DNA of 21,961 nucleotides from a virus: positions 1 to 21,961 of IMG/VR virus record IMGVR_UViG_3300031997_000076; one strand, 5' to 3'. How positions within the stretch are numbered: position 1 is the first letter of the stretch; each line of letters opens with the position of its first letter. The position numbers and the translations under genes are program-made. Below, piece by piece: positions 473 through 7,778 of this stretch. The notes beneath the pieces are model-generated. The model was given only the letters and a program-made list of their open reading frames with translations, had not been told where the DNA came from and made no database searches.

Positions 473-2677
473 ATGAAACTCAAGGAATGGATCGCCCGGC
501 AACTGTCCCGGATCTTCAAGGGCAGCGTGACCTATCAGATCGTGGTGGCGCCCGCCGAGAGTGGACAGACGTACCCGGATGTCCACTCCGAAGAGGACTC
601 ACTCGCTACGGACTTCATCTTCGGCAGCAGCCCAACGCTCTACGCAGCCGTGCGGGCCGTGGCCAACGCAATCGCCATGGTGCCCATCCGAGTCATCGGG
701 CCGGACGGGAAGGAACGACCGAACCATCCCCTACAGAAACTCCTCGACAGGCCGAACGATTGGGACACCACCTTCGACCTCATGGAGCAGACCGGAATCT
801 TCCTCGAGGCCACGGGCACGATGCCGTGGTATCTCGAGGGCGGGGCCAACAAAGGCAAGCCGAGTCAGATCATCCCGCTCCACCCGAACCGCGTGACGCC
901 TGTTCTGCATCCGACGAAGAAAATCTCCGGGTACGAGTACAGCGTGGACGGCAGGACCAAGGTGTTCTCCGTCGATGAGATGATCCTGTTCCGCTTCTTC
1001 GACCCCGGTGATGTCAAGGGCATGTCCGGCATGGGCTCCATGACGCCCGCGATGGATTCGGCCATCGTGGATCGGCTTGCCGTGCGGTTCAACCGGCAAT
1101 TCTTCAAGCGCGGAGCCGTGCTGTCCGGCGTCATCGAGACGGAATCCGAGGACATCGAACCCGCCACGATGGAGAAGTACGTCCAGCAGTTCCGGGACAG
1201 GCACGCAGGCAGCGAGAGGGCATGGGATGTCCGTGGGCTCTCCCACGGGCTGAAGTGGAAGCCGACGCAACCCACCCACACCGATATGCTGTTCGAGAAA
1301 CTGCGGTCCATGAACCGAGAGGAAATGCTGATGTCCGTGGGCGTGCCGCCCATCATGGTAACGCTCCTGGACGGTGCTACCTACTCCAACGCGCAGCAGC
1401 AGGAGTCGGCGTTCTGGATCGCTACCATCCTGCCCAAGATCCGCAAGATGGAGGCGCGCCTGAACCGCGACCTCGCATCACGGTACGGGGATGTGACCAT
1501 CATCCTCGACATCAGCGACATCAAGGCGCTCCAGCCCGACCGAACCCAGATCGCCTCCGTGATCTCGCCCCTGTTGGAGCGCCGCATCATCAACCCGAAC
1601 GAGGCCAGGTTCTACCTCAGCTCGGGTCGCATCCCGAAACTCGATCCCGTCAAGCATGGGGAAGAGTTCCTGACGAACTTCCAGATCACGTCGCTCAAGG
1701 CGAGCCTGGATGTGCGAACCCCCGCGACACCCGAGGTTCCACCAGCGGACACTCCACCAGACGAGTCTCCAGAGGATGACCAGGTGGAGAACCTTCTGGC
1801 GACACTCGCTCGGAAGGCCATCGAACTCGACATCGAGACGCGGAACGAGATCCGCACCCGCAATCTAGATCCGATTCGCCGGGCCTCCATCCGGATCTTC
1901 CAGGACACTTCCTACTCCCTGTTCGAGCAGCAGCGGAAGGCCGTACTCGAGGTCATCGAGAGGCGCAAGGGAGTCCTGGTGGATCTGGCGAAACTCCAGT
2001 TCCCGGCCAAGAGCTCCCGCTTCAAGGGCGTCATGGATGATCTCAGCGGACTCCTGGATGAACTGGAGAACGAATACCAAAGTCAGTTCCTCGGGGCCTA
2101 CTACGACACCGTATCGGAGACCGGCAGGGAAGCCATGCGTCTCATCGACCCCGACTTGACCTATCACTCCTCGGGGGTATCGGCCACCACCTTCACCTCC
2201 AAGCAGTCCGGCAAGCTCATCGTGGGGATCCACGAGGCTACGCTGGCGAAGGTACAGGCCACGCTTGCGGAAGGGCTTGCCTTGGGGGAGACGAACGCGG
2301 ATCTCGCCTCCCGCCTGATGGACGTGATGGGTTCGGATGTGAACGTGGAGCGCGCACGCATGATCGCGCAGACGGAATCGAACCGCTCGGTGAACTTCGG
2401 CCAAGTGGATGCGTGGGCACAGACCGGCGGTGTGGTCAATCGCAAGATGTGGGTCTCGTCTGGAGACGACAAGGTGCGTGACACTCACCAGCAAGCGGAC
2501 GGCCAGGTGGTCGGTCTCGACGAGACCTTCACCGTTGGGAGCTCCCGGCTGGATTACCCCGGGGACGAAGATCACGGGGCCGACGCATCCGAAGTGATCG
2601 ACTGCCGATGCTCGATGGATCCGATCCTGGCGAGCGAAGCAGCCGCCTACTCGCGGAACGGAAAGGGTCACGCATGA
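473..2677 (+). CDS. Portal protein fused to a MuF-like (SPP1 gp7-type) C-terminal domain
   Basis: A 734-residue protein. Residues about 45-400 are a HK97-type portal: TLYAAVRAVANAIAMVPIRV, then HPLQKLLDRPND, then a long helical part including VGVPPIMVTLLDGATYSNAQ, typical of the family that forms the dodecameric ring through which DNA enters the capsid. A Pro/Asp/Glu-rich linker sits at about 416-438. The remainder is helical and then carries a MuF/phage head morphogenesis signature: AQTESNRS near 632, MWVSSGDDKVRDTHQQADGQ near 655, and a terminal IDCRC near 708. Usually portal and MuF are two separate adjacent genes of about 400-500 and 250-350 residues; here both are in one frame with no stop. 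The MuF part is expected to be a minor capsid protein inside the head. The stop overlaps the protease start (ATGA). Confidence 0.93.
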   Translation: MKLKEWIARQLSRIFKGSVTYQIVVAPAESGQTYPDVHSEEDSLATDFIFGSSPTLYAAVRAVANAIAMVPIRVIGPDGKERPNHPLQKLLDRPNDWDTTFDLMEQTGIFLEATGTMPWYLEGGANKGKPSQIIPLHPNRVTPVLHPTKKISGYEYSVDGRTKVFSVDEMILFRFFDPGDVKGMSGMGSMTPAMDSAIVDRLAVRFNRQFFKRGAVLSGVIETESEDIEPATMEKYVQQFRDRHAGSERAWDVRGLSHGLKWKPTQPTHTDMLFEKLRSMNREEMLMSVGVPPIMVTLLDGATYSNAQQQESAFWIATILPKIRKMEARLNRDLASRYGDVTIILDISDIKALQPDRTQIASVISPLLERRIINPNEARFYLSSGRIPKLDPVKHGEEFLTNFQITSLKASLDVRTPATPEVPPADTPPDESPEDDQVENLLATLARKAIELDIETRNEIRTRNLDPIRRASIRIFQDTSYSLFEQQRKAVLEVIERRKGVLVDLAKLQFPAKSSRFKGVMDDLSGLLDELENEYQSQFLGAYYDTVSETGREAMRLIDPDLTYHSSGVSATTFTSKQSGKLIVGIHEATLAKVQATLAEGLALGETNADLASRLMDVMGSDVNVERARMIAQTESNRSVNFGQVDAWAQTGGVVNRKMWVSSGDDKVRDTHQQADGQVVGLDETFTVGSSRLDYPGDEDHGADASEVIDCRCSMDPILASEAAAYSRNGKGHA

Positions 2678-3492
2678 ACACTCTGGAGCTCCTGAAAGCC
2701 ACGAGGCCGGACGAGTACGCGATGCGCGAACGCCTGGCCGCCGACTGCAAGAAGGGAGGAAAGACGGAACTCCTCTGGTGGCAGGGAGGGTTGGATCGCG
2801 TTCTCAAGGCCGGTCCCGACATCTTCACCTTCACGATCTCCACCCCGACAGTGGATCGCTACGAGGATGTCGTGACCCCCGAGGGCATGGTCAACACCGC
2901 GTTCCGTAGCAACAACGTCGTCCTGTGGCAGCACGATCACACCAAGCACATCGGAAACTCCATCGCCGAGCGGATCATCCCCGGGATACGGGTCGAAGCC
3001 GACATGGACTTCGACACCGCCAACGATCAGGACGGTCTCGCCGCCATGGTCAAGGGCAAAGTCGCGGACGGAAGGATTCGAGCGACCTCCATCGGATTCC
3101 GCCCGCTCAAGTACGAAATGCGCTACGAGACCGCCGAGACCAACAGCGGGAAGACCCAGGACATCTGGACTGGCGGCTTCACGTTCCATGAGTGGGAGTT
3201 GCTGGAGTGGAGCATCGTCTCCATCCCGGCGAACCCCGATGCGGTGCGGAGGGCGTTCGGACTTCTGATGAACGGCCCGACCGATGAACTTGAAGAGGCC
3301 ATCCAGCGCGTGTTCGCACGCGAGTACGGGAACCGTCTGGAGGAAGCGTTCGGGGAGATCAGCCGGCTCAAGCAGTTGGTGGATCGCTTCGAGCGGGAAC
3401 CACGCGGACCAGGGATCACGATGGCGGAACTTCTCGAAATCGAGAAGGCTTCGAGCATCCTGCGTGATCTCAGTCTGACAAGGAGAGACTGA
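2674..3492 (+). CDS. Prohead (capsid maturation) protease, HK97/S78 type
   Basis: A 272-residue protein. I choose ATG 2674, which overlaps the portal stop as ATGA, rather than an in-frame ATG at 2608 that would extend 22 residues into the portal gene. The fold signature is FTFTISTPTVDRYEDVVTPE, the likely catalytic His within VLWQHDHTKHIGN (H87 or H89), the nucleophile region ATSIGF (S139), and WELLEWSIVSIPANPDA near 174-190. These match the herpesvirus-protease-like HK97 gp4 family, which removes the N-terminal delta domain of the major capsid protein and other internal proteins during head maturation. The C-terminal 80 residues are helical and could be a self-cleaved tail. It lies just upstream of the capsid gene as expected. 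Confidence 0.92.
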   Translation: MNTLELLKATRPDEYAMRERLAADCKKGGKTELLWWQGGLDRVLKAGPDIFTFTISTPTVDRYEDVVTPEGMVNTAFRSNNVVLWQHDHTKHIGNSIAERIIPGIRVEADMDFDTANDQDGLAAMVKGKVADGRIRATSIGFRPLKYEMRYETAETNSGKTQDIWTGGFTFHEWELLEWSIVSIPANPDAVRRAFGLLMNGPTDELEEAIQRVFAREYGNRLEEAFGEISRLKQLVDRFEREPRGPGITMAELLEIEKASSILRDLSLTRRD

Positions 3493-3986
3493 TGATTCGC
3501 AAGCCACTGATGGGTCTGCTGGTGGCGGTCGGGCTGCTTGGTCTGGCCTCTACCGCGATGGCGACCAAGAACGCGCCGCAGTTGAGGACCGTTCAGTATG
3601 GAGTCGTGACGGTGGCGATCTCGCTTCCCTCGATGGCGACCAGCGCGCTCGACACCTCCTACGTGGACATCTCGGACGGGAAATGGACGATCCTGCCGGG
3701 CGCCACACCGTACACCGCCATGCCATTGAGCATCGGGGCGTACTTTGTGACGGCGCTGGTGGACTCAGTGAATACTGGGATCAGCGTCGGCACGCTTGCG
3801 TCTCCGACGACTGGTTGGCTGGAAATATACTCGCTGAACAACATCAACTCCAATCTAACGGCGGCGGCCCCGTTCAAGGCACTCGCCGTCTCGGTGGTCG
3901 CTCCGATTTTGAGGGTGATCGTCAGGCACGCGGAAGCCACCACAACCGGCTACTCCGTGCTTTACATCAACTACCCGATCAAGTGA
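3492..3986 (+). CDS. Small leader-bearing protein upstream of the capsid gene (unknown function)
   Basis: A 164-residue protein; the ATG at 3492 shares its first base with the protease TGA, with AGGAGA just upstream. The N-terminus is a textbook signal-peptide shape: MIRKP, then a hydrophobic run LMGLLVAVGLLGLAS, then TAMA before TKN, giving a predicted cleavage near residue 24. The rest is Ser/Thr/Ala-rich with short beta-like strands and no Cys, ending in YSVLYINYPIK. I do not recognise a family. A leader on a gene inside the head-assembly block is unexpected, because heads assemble in the cytoplasm. A second leader-bearing protein of similar size lies just after the capsid gene. Possibilities are an envelope-acting protein carried as cargo, a decoration protein with a misread hydrophobic arm, or a leader removed by the prohead protease. 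Confidence 0.85.
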   Translation: MIRKPLMGLLVAVGLLGLASTAMATKNAPQLRTVQYGVVTVAISLPSMATSALDTSYVDISDGKWTILPGATPYTAMPLSIGAYFVTALVDSVNTGISVGTLASPTTGWLEIYSLNNINSNLTAAAPFKALAVSVVAPILRVIVRHAEATTTGYSVLYINYPIK

Positions 3987-4075
3987 ATGGCATGACGTTC
4001 TCTCACGCCGGGGCGCAAGTTGCACCGCACGGCATCCCCCGCGACCTGCTACCGCAGTCGCTCTAGGAGGTTGGT

Positions 4076-5566
4076 ATGACCGAGCAAGTCAAAGCAACCG
4101 CACACGAAGAACTGGTGCGGCTGACAGAGCAGATCCGCGACGAGATCCGGTCGGAGCGCAAGACGTTCTCCGACAAGCTGGAGACCGTCGAGAAGATGGG
4201 TGTCGATCTCCAGCGCGAGATCGATCGCCAGCATCGGGAGCCCATCTTCCCCGGCGTGGATGCCGGTGAGTTCGATGGAACGCCCAAGTCGTTCCGCAAG
4301 ACGTTCATCTCGAAGCGTCCGCAGCCCGGGCAGAAGGGTCACGAGCAGATCAGCGAACTCCAGACGCTCAACGATGAGCTGTTCTACATGGAGAAGATCC
4401 GCCAGGCGTGCAAGCTCGACTCCATGCCGAACACGCCGGAAGACATCCGGGAGACCGCCAAGTGGAAGCAGTACCGGGAAGCCGTACATGCCATCACGAA
4501 GGCCAACGACATCCTGGACGACAGCGGCTCCTCGGTGTGGGTGCCCACCATCACGAGCCAGCAGATGACGGACTTCCTCACGATGGAGATGCGGGTCGGC
4601 TCGCTGTTCCAGGAAGTCCGGATGCCGAGCCCGACGTTCTACTGGCCCTTCGCAACCGCGGCTCCGATTGCCGTTCCGGTGAGCGAGGCGAACGACTACT
4701 CGCAGGCGTTCTCCCCGACCCTCACTCCGGCTACCTATCAGGCGTTCGGAGCCAGCGATCCGGTGGGTCGGGCGACCTTCACCGCGAAGAAGATCCGGGC
4801 CTTCCAGTTCTTCACGCGGGAGTGGAGCGAGGACACCATCGCAGCGGCGATGCCGTGGCTCAATCAGCAGATGCCGAGGGCCGTGGGTCGGGGCTGGGAG
4901 AACGCCATCGTGAACGGCGACACCGCCGGCACCCTGGATGCCGCGGACGCGAGCGAGTGCTCGACGTGGTTCAACGGTCTCCGGTACTACTGCATCTCAC
5001 AGGGTTCGTGGGCCGGAACCTCCGCCGACACCCATGGGTTCCCGCATCAGCAGATCGCCTACACGACTCCGGGAACGTGGGCCGACGCCGACTTCCAGAC
5101 CTCGCTCCGCGGACAGCGGGTGAAGATGGACAAGTACGGGGTTCTGCTCTCGGATCTCGCCTGGATCGTGTCGCTGGACTGCTACTACCGGATGATGGTT
5201 CTTCCGGGGATGCAGAAGTTGTCGGACTTCGGACCGCAGGCCACTCTGTTGAGCGGCCAGGTGGGATCGTTCGACGACATTCCGGTGATCCTGAGCCAGT
5301 TCTTCTTCCGGGTGGAGGGAGACAACGCGACCGACACGCTGAACGGGAAGAAGCACGGTACGCTCACCCGGTCCTCGGGTGGCAACCTGCTCGTGTACCG
5401 TCCCGCGTGGCTGCGCGGTCGGATGGCGAGCATGGCGGTGGAGGCGATCCGGTTCCCCATGAGCGACCAGCACGCGGTCGTGATGTGGGAGCGCGGGGAT
5501 TTCAACACCATCCATCCGGCGACGGCGACCACGGTGAACTACGGATACGACATCAAGCCTCTGTAG
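4076..5566 (+). CDS. Major capsid protein, HK97 fold
   Basis: A 496-residue protein starting at ATG 4076 behind TAGGAGG. Residues about 1-55 are charged and coiled-coil-like (HEELVRLTEQIRDEIRSERK), as in the N-terminal delta domain that acts as an internal scaffold in HK97-like phages and is then removed by the protease. The mature region has an N-arm with SSVWVPTITSQQMTDFL, an E-loop-like part, the characteristic WENAIVNGDTAG motif near 273-284, and a C-terminal P/A-domain ending with the strands MAVEAIRFPMSDQHAVVMWE and VNYGYDIKPL. The length is in the upper range for a delta-domain-containing MCP. The cleavage site would lie between about residues 90 and 150 but cannot be fixed by eye. Gene order protease-MCP-connector supports the call. 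Confidence 0.93.
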   Translation: MTEQVKATAHEELVRLTEQIRDEIRSERKTFSDKLETVEKMGVDLQREIDRQHREPIFPGVDAGEFDGTPKSFRKTFISKRPQPGQKGHEQISELQTLNDELFYMEKIRQACKLDSMPNTPEDIRETAKWKQYREAVHAITKANDILDDSGSSVWVPTITSQQMTDFLTMEMRVGSLFQEVRMPSPTFYWPFATAAPIAVPVSEANDYSQAFSPTLTPATYQAFGASDPVGRATFTAKKIRAFQFFTREWSEDTIAAAMPWLNQQMPRAVGRGWENAIVNGDTAGTLDAADASECSTWFNGLRYYCISQGSWAGTSADTHGFPHQQIAYTTPGTWADADFQTSLRGQRVKMDKYGVLLSDLAWIVSLDCYYRMMVLPGMQKLSDFGPQATLLSGQVGSFDDIPVILSQFFFRVEGDNATDTLNGKKHGTLTRSSGGNLLVYRPAWLRGRMASMAVEAIRFPMSDQHAVVMWERGDFNTIHPATATTVNYGYDIKPL

Positions 5567-5578
5567 TTCGTGATCTGA

Positions 5579-5645
5579 GCTGGGATGCCCTTCCCCAGCG
5601 ATGAACGAAGCGGGGTGGCCGGTCAGGAAGCTGGCCGCCACCCCG
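5579..5645 (+). terminator. Two tandem hairpins after the capsid gene
   Basis: The first inverted repeat is GCTGGG 5579-5584 with CCCAGC 5594-5599 (6-bp stem, 9-base loop). The second is CGGGGTGGC 5611-5619 with GCCACCCCG 5637-5645 (9-bp stem, 17-base loop). No T-run follows, so a classic intrinsic terminator is not shown; partial termination, Rho-independent pausing or protection of the capsid mRNA 3' end are more likely. The hairpins end 8 bases before the ribosome binding site of the next gene. Confidence 0.5.
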
Positions 5646-5665
5646 TATTCGTGAAGGAGACGAAG

Positions 5666-6172
5666 ATGCGGATTCTGAAGATCACTGGGTTGGTCGCGCT
5701 CCTGCTCTTGCCGCCGCTGCTGCTCAGGGCGGATTCGGTCATCACCAAGACTGCGAATGCGGTTCTCTCTGGCGATTCCGGGCCAGGGATGCTGGAGTGG
5801 CGGATCACCTGTACCGATACCGCCGTCGAACAGGGGGATACGCTCCTCACAGGATGGGTGAAGGCTCAGAACCAACTGCTCACCCGGGGTGGATCGGCGA
5901 ACACCCTGTTCCTCTCAGGGACGGCCTGGTACATGGACACCACAGCGACATCGCTGGTTCTGGAGACCTGCGCGACCCTGACACCCTCGACGGCGATTGG
6001 TCGGAAACCCATCCTGACTACGCTTGCGACTGGCATCACCAAAACTCCGGTGTCGTTCGCAACGGCGGTCCCGGTATCGAAGTGGTGGAGATTCATGTAC
6101 GTTTACACGGACAACGACTCGGTGGCGGCATCGGGCGCCATGATGATCCTGGAGATATGGAAACCGAACTAA
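5666..6172 (+). CDS. Second small leader-bearing protein, downstream of the capsid gene
   Basis: A 168-residue protein. I choose ATG 5666 because GAAGGAG at 5653-5659 lies six bases upstream and because the longer alternative (from 5585) would run through the hairpins. The N-terminus MRILKITG followed by LVALLLLPPLLLRA is a short positively charged, strongly hydrophobic signal-like segment, with a plausible cleavage before DSVITK. The mature part is beta-rich with two Cys (near residues 50 and 100) that could form a disulfide in an oxidising compartment. It ends in AASGAMMILEIWKPN, which resembles in layout the C-terminus of the leader-bearing protein before the capsid gene. There is no lipobox. 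Family and function are unknown; decoration, capsid cargo or an envelope protein affecting adsorption are all possible. Confidence 0.85.
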   Translation: MRILKITGLVALLLLPPLLLRADSVITKTANAVLSGDSGPGMLEWRITCTDTAVEQGDTLLTGWVKAQNQLLTRGGSANTLFLSGTAWYMDTTATSLVLETCATLTPSTAIGRKPILTTLATGITKTPVSFATAVPVSKWWRFMYVYTDNDSVAASGAMMILEIWKPN

Positions 6173-6492
6173 CGCAAGACGCACGCGACGCCTTCGGCGT
6201 TCCGGAGCATCCGGACATCGCGGGCTTGAAGCGTGCTCACCTTGACGCTTACGACAAGGCAATGGAGAAGGGAGCGAAGATGCAGGTGCAGGTGCGGGTA
6301 ACGAAAAGCACACTCATTCAAGGGCAAGGGTTCGTGGTCCATAAGGACCATACCTTCATGATCGACCGTGAGGACTTCCAGCGGGTGAAGAACTCGCTGG
6401 ACGGGAACCTGGAGCTGGTGGACCGGGACATCATGGAACCCCTCGTGATGCCCGACAAGAGCATGAAGTCGGGGTCGATGGTAACAAAGTAA
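6157..6492 (+). CDS. Small hypothetical head-region protein
   Basis: A 111-residue protein if started at ATG 6157, which overlaps the preceding gene by 16 bases but has GGAG only two bases before the ATG. An alternative ATG at 6280 has a better placed GAAGGGAG and would give a 70-residue protein starting MQVQVRVTK. The segment between the two starts (TQDARDAFGVPEHPDIAGLK) looks protein-like, and without it a 107-base gap would remain, so I favour the longer form. The C-terminal part has a compact basic/acidic pattern (FMIDREDFQRVKNSLDGNLE) and no recognised motif. Its stop abuts the connector ATG at 6493. A role in the head or as an accessory to MCP is inferred only from position. Confidence 0.7.
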   Translation: METELTQDARDAFGVPEHPDIAGLKRAHLDAYDKAMEKGAKMQVQVRVTKSTLIQGQGFVVHKDHTFMIDREDFQRVKNSLDGNLELVDRDIMEPLVMPDKSMKSGSMVTK

Positions 6493-7110
6493 ATGGCGCT
6501 CACTGTCGTCACGCTCGCCACCTACGCCCTCGCCACCATCGAGGATGTGACCCAGTACATGCAACTGGAAGGCCCCCCGAGCGCGGGGGAAGCCGAGTTG
6601 GTGAAGCGCGTCATCAACGCCGCGACCGATCGGGTGGAGCGGCATTGTGGCCGGCACTTCGTCGGGCGAGCCGTGACGGAGTTCTACGATGGCGAGGGGT
6701 CCAAGAGGCTCTACCTCCGTATGCACCCCGTCGTGTCGGTCTCCCAGGCCGATTACCTGGCGGTGGACGGATCGAGTTACGCCACCTACCTATCGAGCGA
6801 TCTGCTGCTCGACACCCGCAAGGGAGTCCTGATGCTCAAGGGCGGGTATTCGTGGACACATGGGATCCGGAACTGGCAGATCCAGTACACCCCTGGGTGG
6901 GCCACACTCGGGGACGTGCCGAGCGATGTGGTGCTGGCCTGCATGAAGCTCTGCGCCGAATACTGGCGGCAGTACGCGAACCGCCGGGACGACATTGACT
7001 CCATGAGCGTTGACGGCCAGACGGTCTTCTACTCCAGGGATCCGATGCCCAAGGACGTGAAGGCGCTTCTGGGGCACTTCGTGGTTCCCTACGGGACCGG
7101 GGGCGAGTGA
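6493..7110 (+). CDS. Head-tail connector (HK97 gp6-like adaptor)
   Basis: A 205-residue protein starting immediately after TAA 6490-6492. The N-terminal half has the helical pattern of the gp6/phage_connect family: TIEDVTQYMQLEGPPSAGEA, then LVKRVINAATDRVERHCGR, followed by a beta part and a C-terminal helix with LACMKLCAEYWRQYANRRDD. This family forms the ring below the portal that joins head to tail. The length is longer than the about 100-residue gp6 of HK97 but normal for the wider family, which inserts a beta domain between the helices (here about residues 65-135). Its position between capsid and gp10-like genes agrees. Confidence 0.85.
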   Translation: MALTVVTLATYALATIEDVTQYMQLEGPPSAGEAELVKRVINAATDRVERHCGRHFVGRAVTEFYDGEGSKRLYLRMHPVVSVSQADYLAVDGSSYATYLSSDLLLDTRKGVLMLKGGYSWTHGIRNWQIQYTPGWATLGDVPSDVVLACMKLCAEYWRQYANRRDDIDSMSVDGQTVFYSRDPMPKDVKALLGHFVVPYGTGGE

Positions 7111-7778
7111 TGCCACGGTTCGAGGGCGGAACTTCAGGGCTGCGCGGGGGACGGGCGCACTACCGTACCCGCAGATCCCGCGTCACCGCGGAGATTGATG
7201 GCATCGAGGAGATCCAAGCCTACCTCCTGAGTCTCCCATACGCCGTCATGAACCAGATGGGGACCAAGATGGTGGAAGCCCTCGTGCTCGTGCAGCGCAC
7301 CCTGGGACAGTCGATCCTGCGGAAGTTCACCCAGCACACCGGGCTGTTCCGCAAGTCCTGGGATATGCAGATGATTACGAAGCCGGTGGCCGGGAAGGGC
7401 CAGCTCGGGGGTGGGATAGTCGCCGGCAAGGTCGGATCGAATCACCCGGCAGCCTGGATTCAGAACGTGGGTTCCGGCTACCTACCTGGGGGCGTCGTGA
7501 GACCGAGGCAGGCCGGATCGCTGGCGATCCCGCAGACGAAGACGGCTCGCGGGAGTCGAGCTCGGGACTGGGGGGACCGCCTCGAGCTCCAGCAAGGCCG
7601 CCGGGGTGCCTATCTCGCCGAGAAGGCATCTGGCACCGTGCAGTACATCTTGAAGCGATCTGTGCGTCTCAAGCCCACCGGGTACCTGGATGAATCCGTG
7701 AATACCGCGGAGCCCTTGGTCGTGAACCTCCTGGGGTATGGAGTCGGGATCGCCGTTATGGAAGGGCCGAGGCCATGA
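7110..7778 (+). CDS. HK97 gp10-like neck / tail completion protein
   Basis: A 222-residue protein starting at ATG 7110, which shares a base with the upstream TGA; a GTG three bases earlier is also in frame. The N-terminus is Arg/Gly-rich. The central region has IEEIQAYLLSLPYAVMNQMG, then helices with ALVLVQRTLGQSILRKFTQHTGLFRKSW, like the HK97 gp10 family in which an N-terminal helix is followed by 'HTGxLRxS' and beta strands. Such proteins complete the neck or tail top. A basic segment at about 130-165 (RPRQAGSLAIPQTKTARGSR) resembles the Mu-like or bulky variants. The stop overlaps the next ATG as ATGA. Confidence 0.75.
   Translation: MPRFEGGTSGLRGGRAHYRTRRSRVTAEIDGIEEIQAYLLSLPYAVMNQMGTKMVEALVLVQRTLGQSILRKFTQHTGLFRKSWDMQMITKPVAGKGQLGGGIVAGKVGSNHPAAWIQNVGSGYLPGGVVRPRQAGSLAIPQTKTARGSRARDWGDRLELQQGRRGAYLAEKASGTVQYILKRSVRLKPTGYLDESVNTAEPLVVNLLGYGVGIAVMEGPRP

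Follow-up and report, generated by a model that had tools for sequence, protein, structure and literature searches.

On the current view, tailed phages complete their heads in the cytoplasm, and one would not expect an export signal on a virion protein. The genes of decoration (cement) proteins commonly lie close to that of the capsid protein. Other phage-encoded proteins do carry export signals and act at the envelope, namely exported morons and receptor-masking proteins, for example T5 Llp, which is a lipoprotein.

According to a review of decoration proteins, many of them are dispensable, and Dec is able to bind mature P22 capsids in vitro; the review makes no mention of signal, periplasm, secretion or export, hence these proteins have not been described as exported (PMC7602432). 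An earlier sequence-only reading of the DNA considered here had argued that an export leader beside a capsid gene is odd, and this argument is sound, as in a Hankyphage study the lack of a signal peptide was taken to characterise variable proteins of the phage type (PMC6199706). A rumen-phage paper noted signal peptides in phages of Bacteroides, without a link to head genes (PMC5723332), and we found no description of head fibres or decoration proteins with signal peptides in the open-access literature.

The head gene cluster

The window, that is, the whole stretch of DNA analysed, is a virus contig of 21,961 bases with a head cluster in its left part. Two leader-bearing genes, P0001 and P0002, flank the capsid gene, at the positions and with the lengths that had been read from the sequence before. 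The features of the cluster are the following.

473..2677, + strand: fusion of the portal protein with a MuF-like head-morphogenesis domain (PHROG and Pfam family matches)
2674..3492, + strand: S78 prohead protease (Pfam PF04586 above the cut-off), overlapping at its stop with the start of P0001
3480..3487, + strand: Shine-Dalgarno sequence of P0001, AAGGAGAG, read from the sequence
3492..3986, + strand: P0001, a 164-aa leader-bearing accessory protein between the prohead protease and the capsid gene
3492..3563, + strand: predicted Sec leader of P0001, 24 aa, MIRKPLMGLLVAVGLLGLASTAMA followed by T (strict and lenient rules; modelled helix 5-22)
4076..5566, + strand: major capsid protein, HK97 fold (PHROG phrog_10, E=1e-11; Pfam PF05065 above the cut-off)
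5653..5659, + strand: Shine-Dalgarno sequence of P0002, GAAGGAG, read from the sequence
5666..6172, + strand: P0002, a 168-aa leader-bearing accessory protein shortly 3' of the capsid gene
5666..5731, + strand: predicted Sec leader of P0002, 22 aa, MRILKITGLVALLLLPPLLLRA followed by D (strict and lenient rules; modelled helix 4-19)
6157..6492, + strand: 111-aa ORF in the position of the small head-cluster protein that follows the capsid gene in many relatives (by position and a DKxxK-like C-terminus, by eye)
6493..7110, + strand: head-tail adaptor (phrog_442, E=1.6e-33), marking the end of the head cluster

The HK97 fold of the capsid protein was assigned by family match, and the nearest isolated relatives of this protein are mostly T5-like capsid proteins (approximately 22-28% identity). 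The 111-aa ORF had no family match in the PHROG search. Just 5' of the portal gene, a 106-aa protein (positions 151-471) has a BppU_N match right at the Pfam cut-off. The gap between the capsid gene and P0002 contains a very stable hairpin at 5610-5646, GCGGGGTGGCCGGTC...GCTGGCCGCCACCCCGT (fold z=-5.8, no T-run), possibly an attenuator or an mRNA-stabilising element; a GC-rich inverted repeat is likewise present 3' of the capsid gene of L026, one of the fetched loci.

Predicted leaders of P0001 and P0002

Leaders with cleavage at A-M-A and L-R-A had been proposed for the two proteins, and both sequences indeed fit the pattern of Sec export and signal peptidase I. Each leader has an n-region with K/R and a Leu/Ala-rich core, and the predicted cleavage sites are A-M-A before T in P0001 and L-R-A before D in P0002, the latter having Leu at position -3, which is permitted and less usual. 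There is no Cys near either cleavage site, hence no lipobox in P0001 or P0002. In both genes the sequence AAGGAG is situated 6 bases 5' of the ATG; as both leader ATGs are preceded by such a strong Shine-Dalgarno sequence, the leaders should be translated.

The leaders were scored by two home-made rules calibrated on 62 E. coli K-12 genes. The lenient rule passes 17 of 19 exported and one of 43 cytosolic E. coli K-12 proteins, as well as 4 of 13 inner-membrane ones; the strict rule, which requires a helix-type core plus a cleavage site, passes 12 of 19 exported and 0 of 43 cytosolic proteins. P0001 and P0002 each pass both rules and are the only ones to do so among the 31 window genes scored (two listed ORFs were left out). 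When the whole proteins were shuffled, the strict rule was passed in 2.5% and 1.1% of cases for P0001 and P0002, respectively; thus, composition alone does not account for the pair of leaders.

In AlphaFold2 models built without an alignment, the leaders are helices (pLDDT ~64), and the bodies, for which a beta fold may be presumed, are modelled at pLDDT ~30, the mean over the whole model being 36 and 38, values too low for folds to be compared. An alternative put forward earlier was that the hydrophobic N-terminus is a buried strand of a capsid-binding fold; the helical leaders speak mildly against it.

Kinship of the two proteins

Searches of viral contigs, isolated phages, Pfam, PHROGs and PDB, and of every ORF in the loci that were fetched, gave no relatives of P0001 or P0002 except those in the near-identical contig L003. 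Nor do the two proteins match any decoration or cement family in the Pfam, PHROG and PDB searches and the scan with PF09956. A weak match of P0002 to L121 (E=0.002) involves a short ORF and was dismissed as due to chance, and weak PDB matches of P0001 (alkaline phosphatase) had E of 0.19 or worse and included the leader region. L026, the nearest capsid relative on the tree, has neither gene. Since P0001 and P0002 are free of homologues outside the near-identical contig, their assignment to the class of proteins described below is by leader and position, and not by sequence kinship.

L003 represents the same phage as the window, with 10 base differences in 5,117 (window positions 2306-7422). 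Nine differences fall within the protease, P0001 and capsid genes and, by eye, all of them are apparently protein-changing (K-N, I-T, L-P, S-A, T-L, A-T, N-H, T-A); three of the changed codons are located within 40 bases of the capsid gene.

Leaders in the head clusters of relatives

Distant relatives of the capsid gene were gathered stepwise with alignments, yielding, in addition to the window, 143 loci, some of which are second fetches of one contig; the family loci were grouped at 80% capsid identity into 86 clusters (lineages). Another HK97-type capsid family served as the control (82 loci, 25 clusters). We scanned the capsid gene with 1.6 kb of sequence on its 5' side and 3.2 kb on its 3' side. 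The contigs of the relatives are partly of uncertain binning, and the counts for them may miss genes, as the simple gene caller misses P0002, for which a longer ORF exists in another frame (it was added by hand). The lenient rule was dropped for counting, as it miscalls N-terminal strands in the control family.

Genes with strict-rule leaders were observed in 11 of 86 family clusters and in one of 25 control clusters, a contrast that is not significant at the level of lineages (Fisher p=0.29) because the control lineages are few. When distinct N-termini were counted, 11 of 585 had a strict leader in the family with T5-like capsids, versus 0.84 in shuffles (no more than 3 in any of 50 runs); in the control family it was one of 440, versus 1.1 in shuffles. 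The difference between the family and the control gave Fisher p=0.017 without the window and 0.006 with its two leaders, values that are optimistic, as the N-termini are not fully independent. No strict leaders were found in the head regions of seven isolated phages, including the T5-like My1. In the slot of P0001, between protease and capsid genes, the Microcystis phage Mvi-JY20 (L008:3934-4548) has a protein of 204 aa whose N-terminal segment is hydrophobic but does not pass the leader rules.

Curation by hand, combining the strict and lenient rules with inspection by eye and taking in a few cases slightly outside the scanned interval, yielded ORFs with a leader, situated within the head cluster or close to it, in 15 of the 86 capsid lineages (L021, L022, L024, L027, L029, L038, L040, L041, L046, L058, L088, L098, L100, L101 and the window). 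On the capsid tree the trait has a scattered distribution that takes 11 changes, of which well-supported branches force at least 9; the label is somewhat clustered and not random.

Several of these ORFs resemble surface proteins of virions. L022:9735 (at least 1137 aa) matches phage tail-fibre families (phrog_18345, 1e-19), and L041:5288 matches a head structural family (phrog_697, 8e-12). L024:4589 has a weak match to a tail-spike family, and pieces of it are similar to proteins of isolated phages, both tail-fibre and structural ones. Matches to PF09956 (Phage_cement_2) in the records of L046, L098 and L021 are below the threshold (14.7-18.8 bits, cut-off 24) and fall in, or apparently in, leader-bearing ORFs (L046:1878, perhaps L098:3258 and L021:6696), so that a relationship to cement proteins is a lead only. 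Other leader-bearing ORFs are, like P0001 and P0002, small and unmatched: L038:4258, between the portal and capsid genes; L101:1163, with the small head protein on one side and the next head-tail gene on the other; L027:7502, after the small head protein; L100:6639; and L022:9124.

In three families, homologues with and without a leader occur at corresponding places of the head cluster. L058:8567 is 46% identical to the leaderless L090, which begins just where cleavage of the L058 protein is predicted; L049, L052, L080 and L084 also have homologues that lack the leader, and this case is less sure because of a TTG start and a weak Shine-Dalgarno sequence. L058:8992 is homologous to leaderless proteins of L239, L090 and L039, with the common motif NGF..D.VQ.AIEE, and L088:8735 is 31% identical to the leaderless L049:8837.

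Two further features were seen in the relatives. The prohead protease and the capsid protein apparently form one fused ORF of ~700-800 aa in L012:4762-6939 and also in L034, L044, L045, L054 and L076. ORFs with glycosyltransferase-like N-termini, as judged by eye, occupy the accessory slot just after the capsid gene in L033:7838, L047:2569, L069:7196 and L099:2629.

Discussion

Of the options proposed by the sequence-only reading, exported proteins in the late operon are the best supported, given the leader anatomy, the translation signals and the recurrence in distant relatives, with export itself being predicted from the sequence. We consider it rather probable that P0001 and P0002 are lineage-specific accessory proteins that are exported by the Sec system late in infection, are cleaved and act outside the cytoplasm, and that they belong to a recurrent class. 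They would be two unrelated genes inserted in the late head operon, each precursor being made with a genuine Sec signal peptide and crossing the host inner membrane, and signal peptidase I would cut at about A24/T25 in P0001 and A22/D23 in P0002. The class would be that of phages with the T5-like capsid type having leaders at head-gene slots, and would comprise proteins of the surface type, namely fibre-like, perhaps cement-like and small unmatched ones. The mature proteins most likely would bind or coat something outside the cytoplasm, either the host envelope or virions released at lysis, and these two readings appear to remain close.

The first of them, in which the proteins are morons exported to the host envelope (for superinfection exclusion, receptor masking or a change of the surface), riding on late-operon transcription and unrelated to the virion, is one branch of the export explanation, and not an alternative to it. 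We hold it as a tentative possibility. It agrees with the presence of leaders, with the absence of virion family matches for P0001 and P0002, and with the accessory nature of the genes, missing as they are in the nearest relative, but in several leader-bearing ORFs of relatives there is sequence of phage fibres or structural proteins, and this suggests proteins of the virion surface more than morons of the envelope.

Alternatively, P0001 and P0002 could be ordinary decoration proteins that join the capsid in the cytoplasm; their hydrophobic N-terminus would then stay uncleaved and serve as an arm or strand for binding to the capsid or within the protein's own oligomer. The slot after the capsid gene is indeed occupied in some relatives by small leaderless proteins (L012:6952, L045, L072), and the post-capsid protein of the control family has a hydrophobic N-terminal strand that fools the lenient rule. 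However, the strict rule passes P0001 and P0002 and rejects the strands of the control family; the leaders are modelled as helices, and their Leu/Ala-rich sequence differs from the Val/Thr strand of the control; and leaders come and go inside families, the predicted cleavage site in one homologous pair being the very start of the leaderless homologue. The earlier proposal of decoration proteins with a leader-like arm is thus weakened, and we regard it as unlikely.

Somewhat more doubtful still is the full form of the second reading under export, in which virion-surface proteins (decorations, head fibres) would be routed through Sec, would fold or be modified in the periplasm or outside, and would dock on finished particles at lysis. 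Coating of virions after lysis would explain both the occurrence of leader-bearing ORFs among head genes and their fibre look, and, if docking at lysis took place, tailed-phage virions would be completed outside the cytoplasm.

The two proteins had also been suggested to be distant paralogues. They are similar in length and leader type, but share no sequence similarity, as BLASTP of P0001 against P0002 yields only E=7.6 and the Smith-Waterman z-score is -0.5, so that their endings, noted before as similar, are not alike beyond chance, and common descent seems very improbable. It is scarcely to be expected that the proteins are cargo or scaffold cut by the S78 prohead protease: P0001 is directly 3' of the protease gene, but the leader has the Sec pattern, and no prohead-targeting sequence was recognised.

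Recurrent Sec leaders on fibre- or coat-like proteins of head clusters raise a testable question, that is, whether these proteins are on the virion and how they get there. Either outcome would be useful: it would reveal that decoration has a late step outside the cell, or that the structural genes conceal a set of surface proteins secreted by the phage, which, in the latter case, are probably misannotated as tail fibres.

Compared with known systems, P0001 and P0002 resemble decoration proteins (lambda gpD, L Dec, T4 Hoc/Soc, T5 pb10) in being small and encoded near the capsid gene, and differ from them in having no sequence match to the known decoration families. Phage_cement_2 is approached, below the threshold, in L046, L098 and L021 and has no match in the window; similarly, the tail-fibre and structural families phrog_18345, phrog_9942 and phrog_697 are matched by leader-bearing ORFs of L022 and L041, and not by P0001 or P0002. 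The likeness to T5 Llp is that of a phage-encoded protein with an export signal, predicted in our case, whereas P0001 and P0002 have no lipobox and are situated inside a head cluster. What is new here is that such predicted leaders recur in the head clusters of distant phages with T5-like capsid genes.
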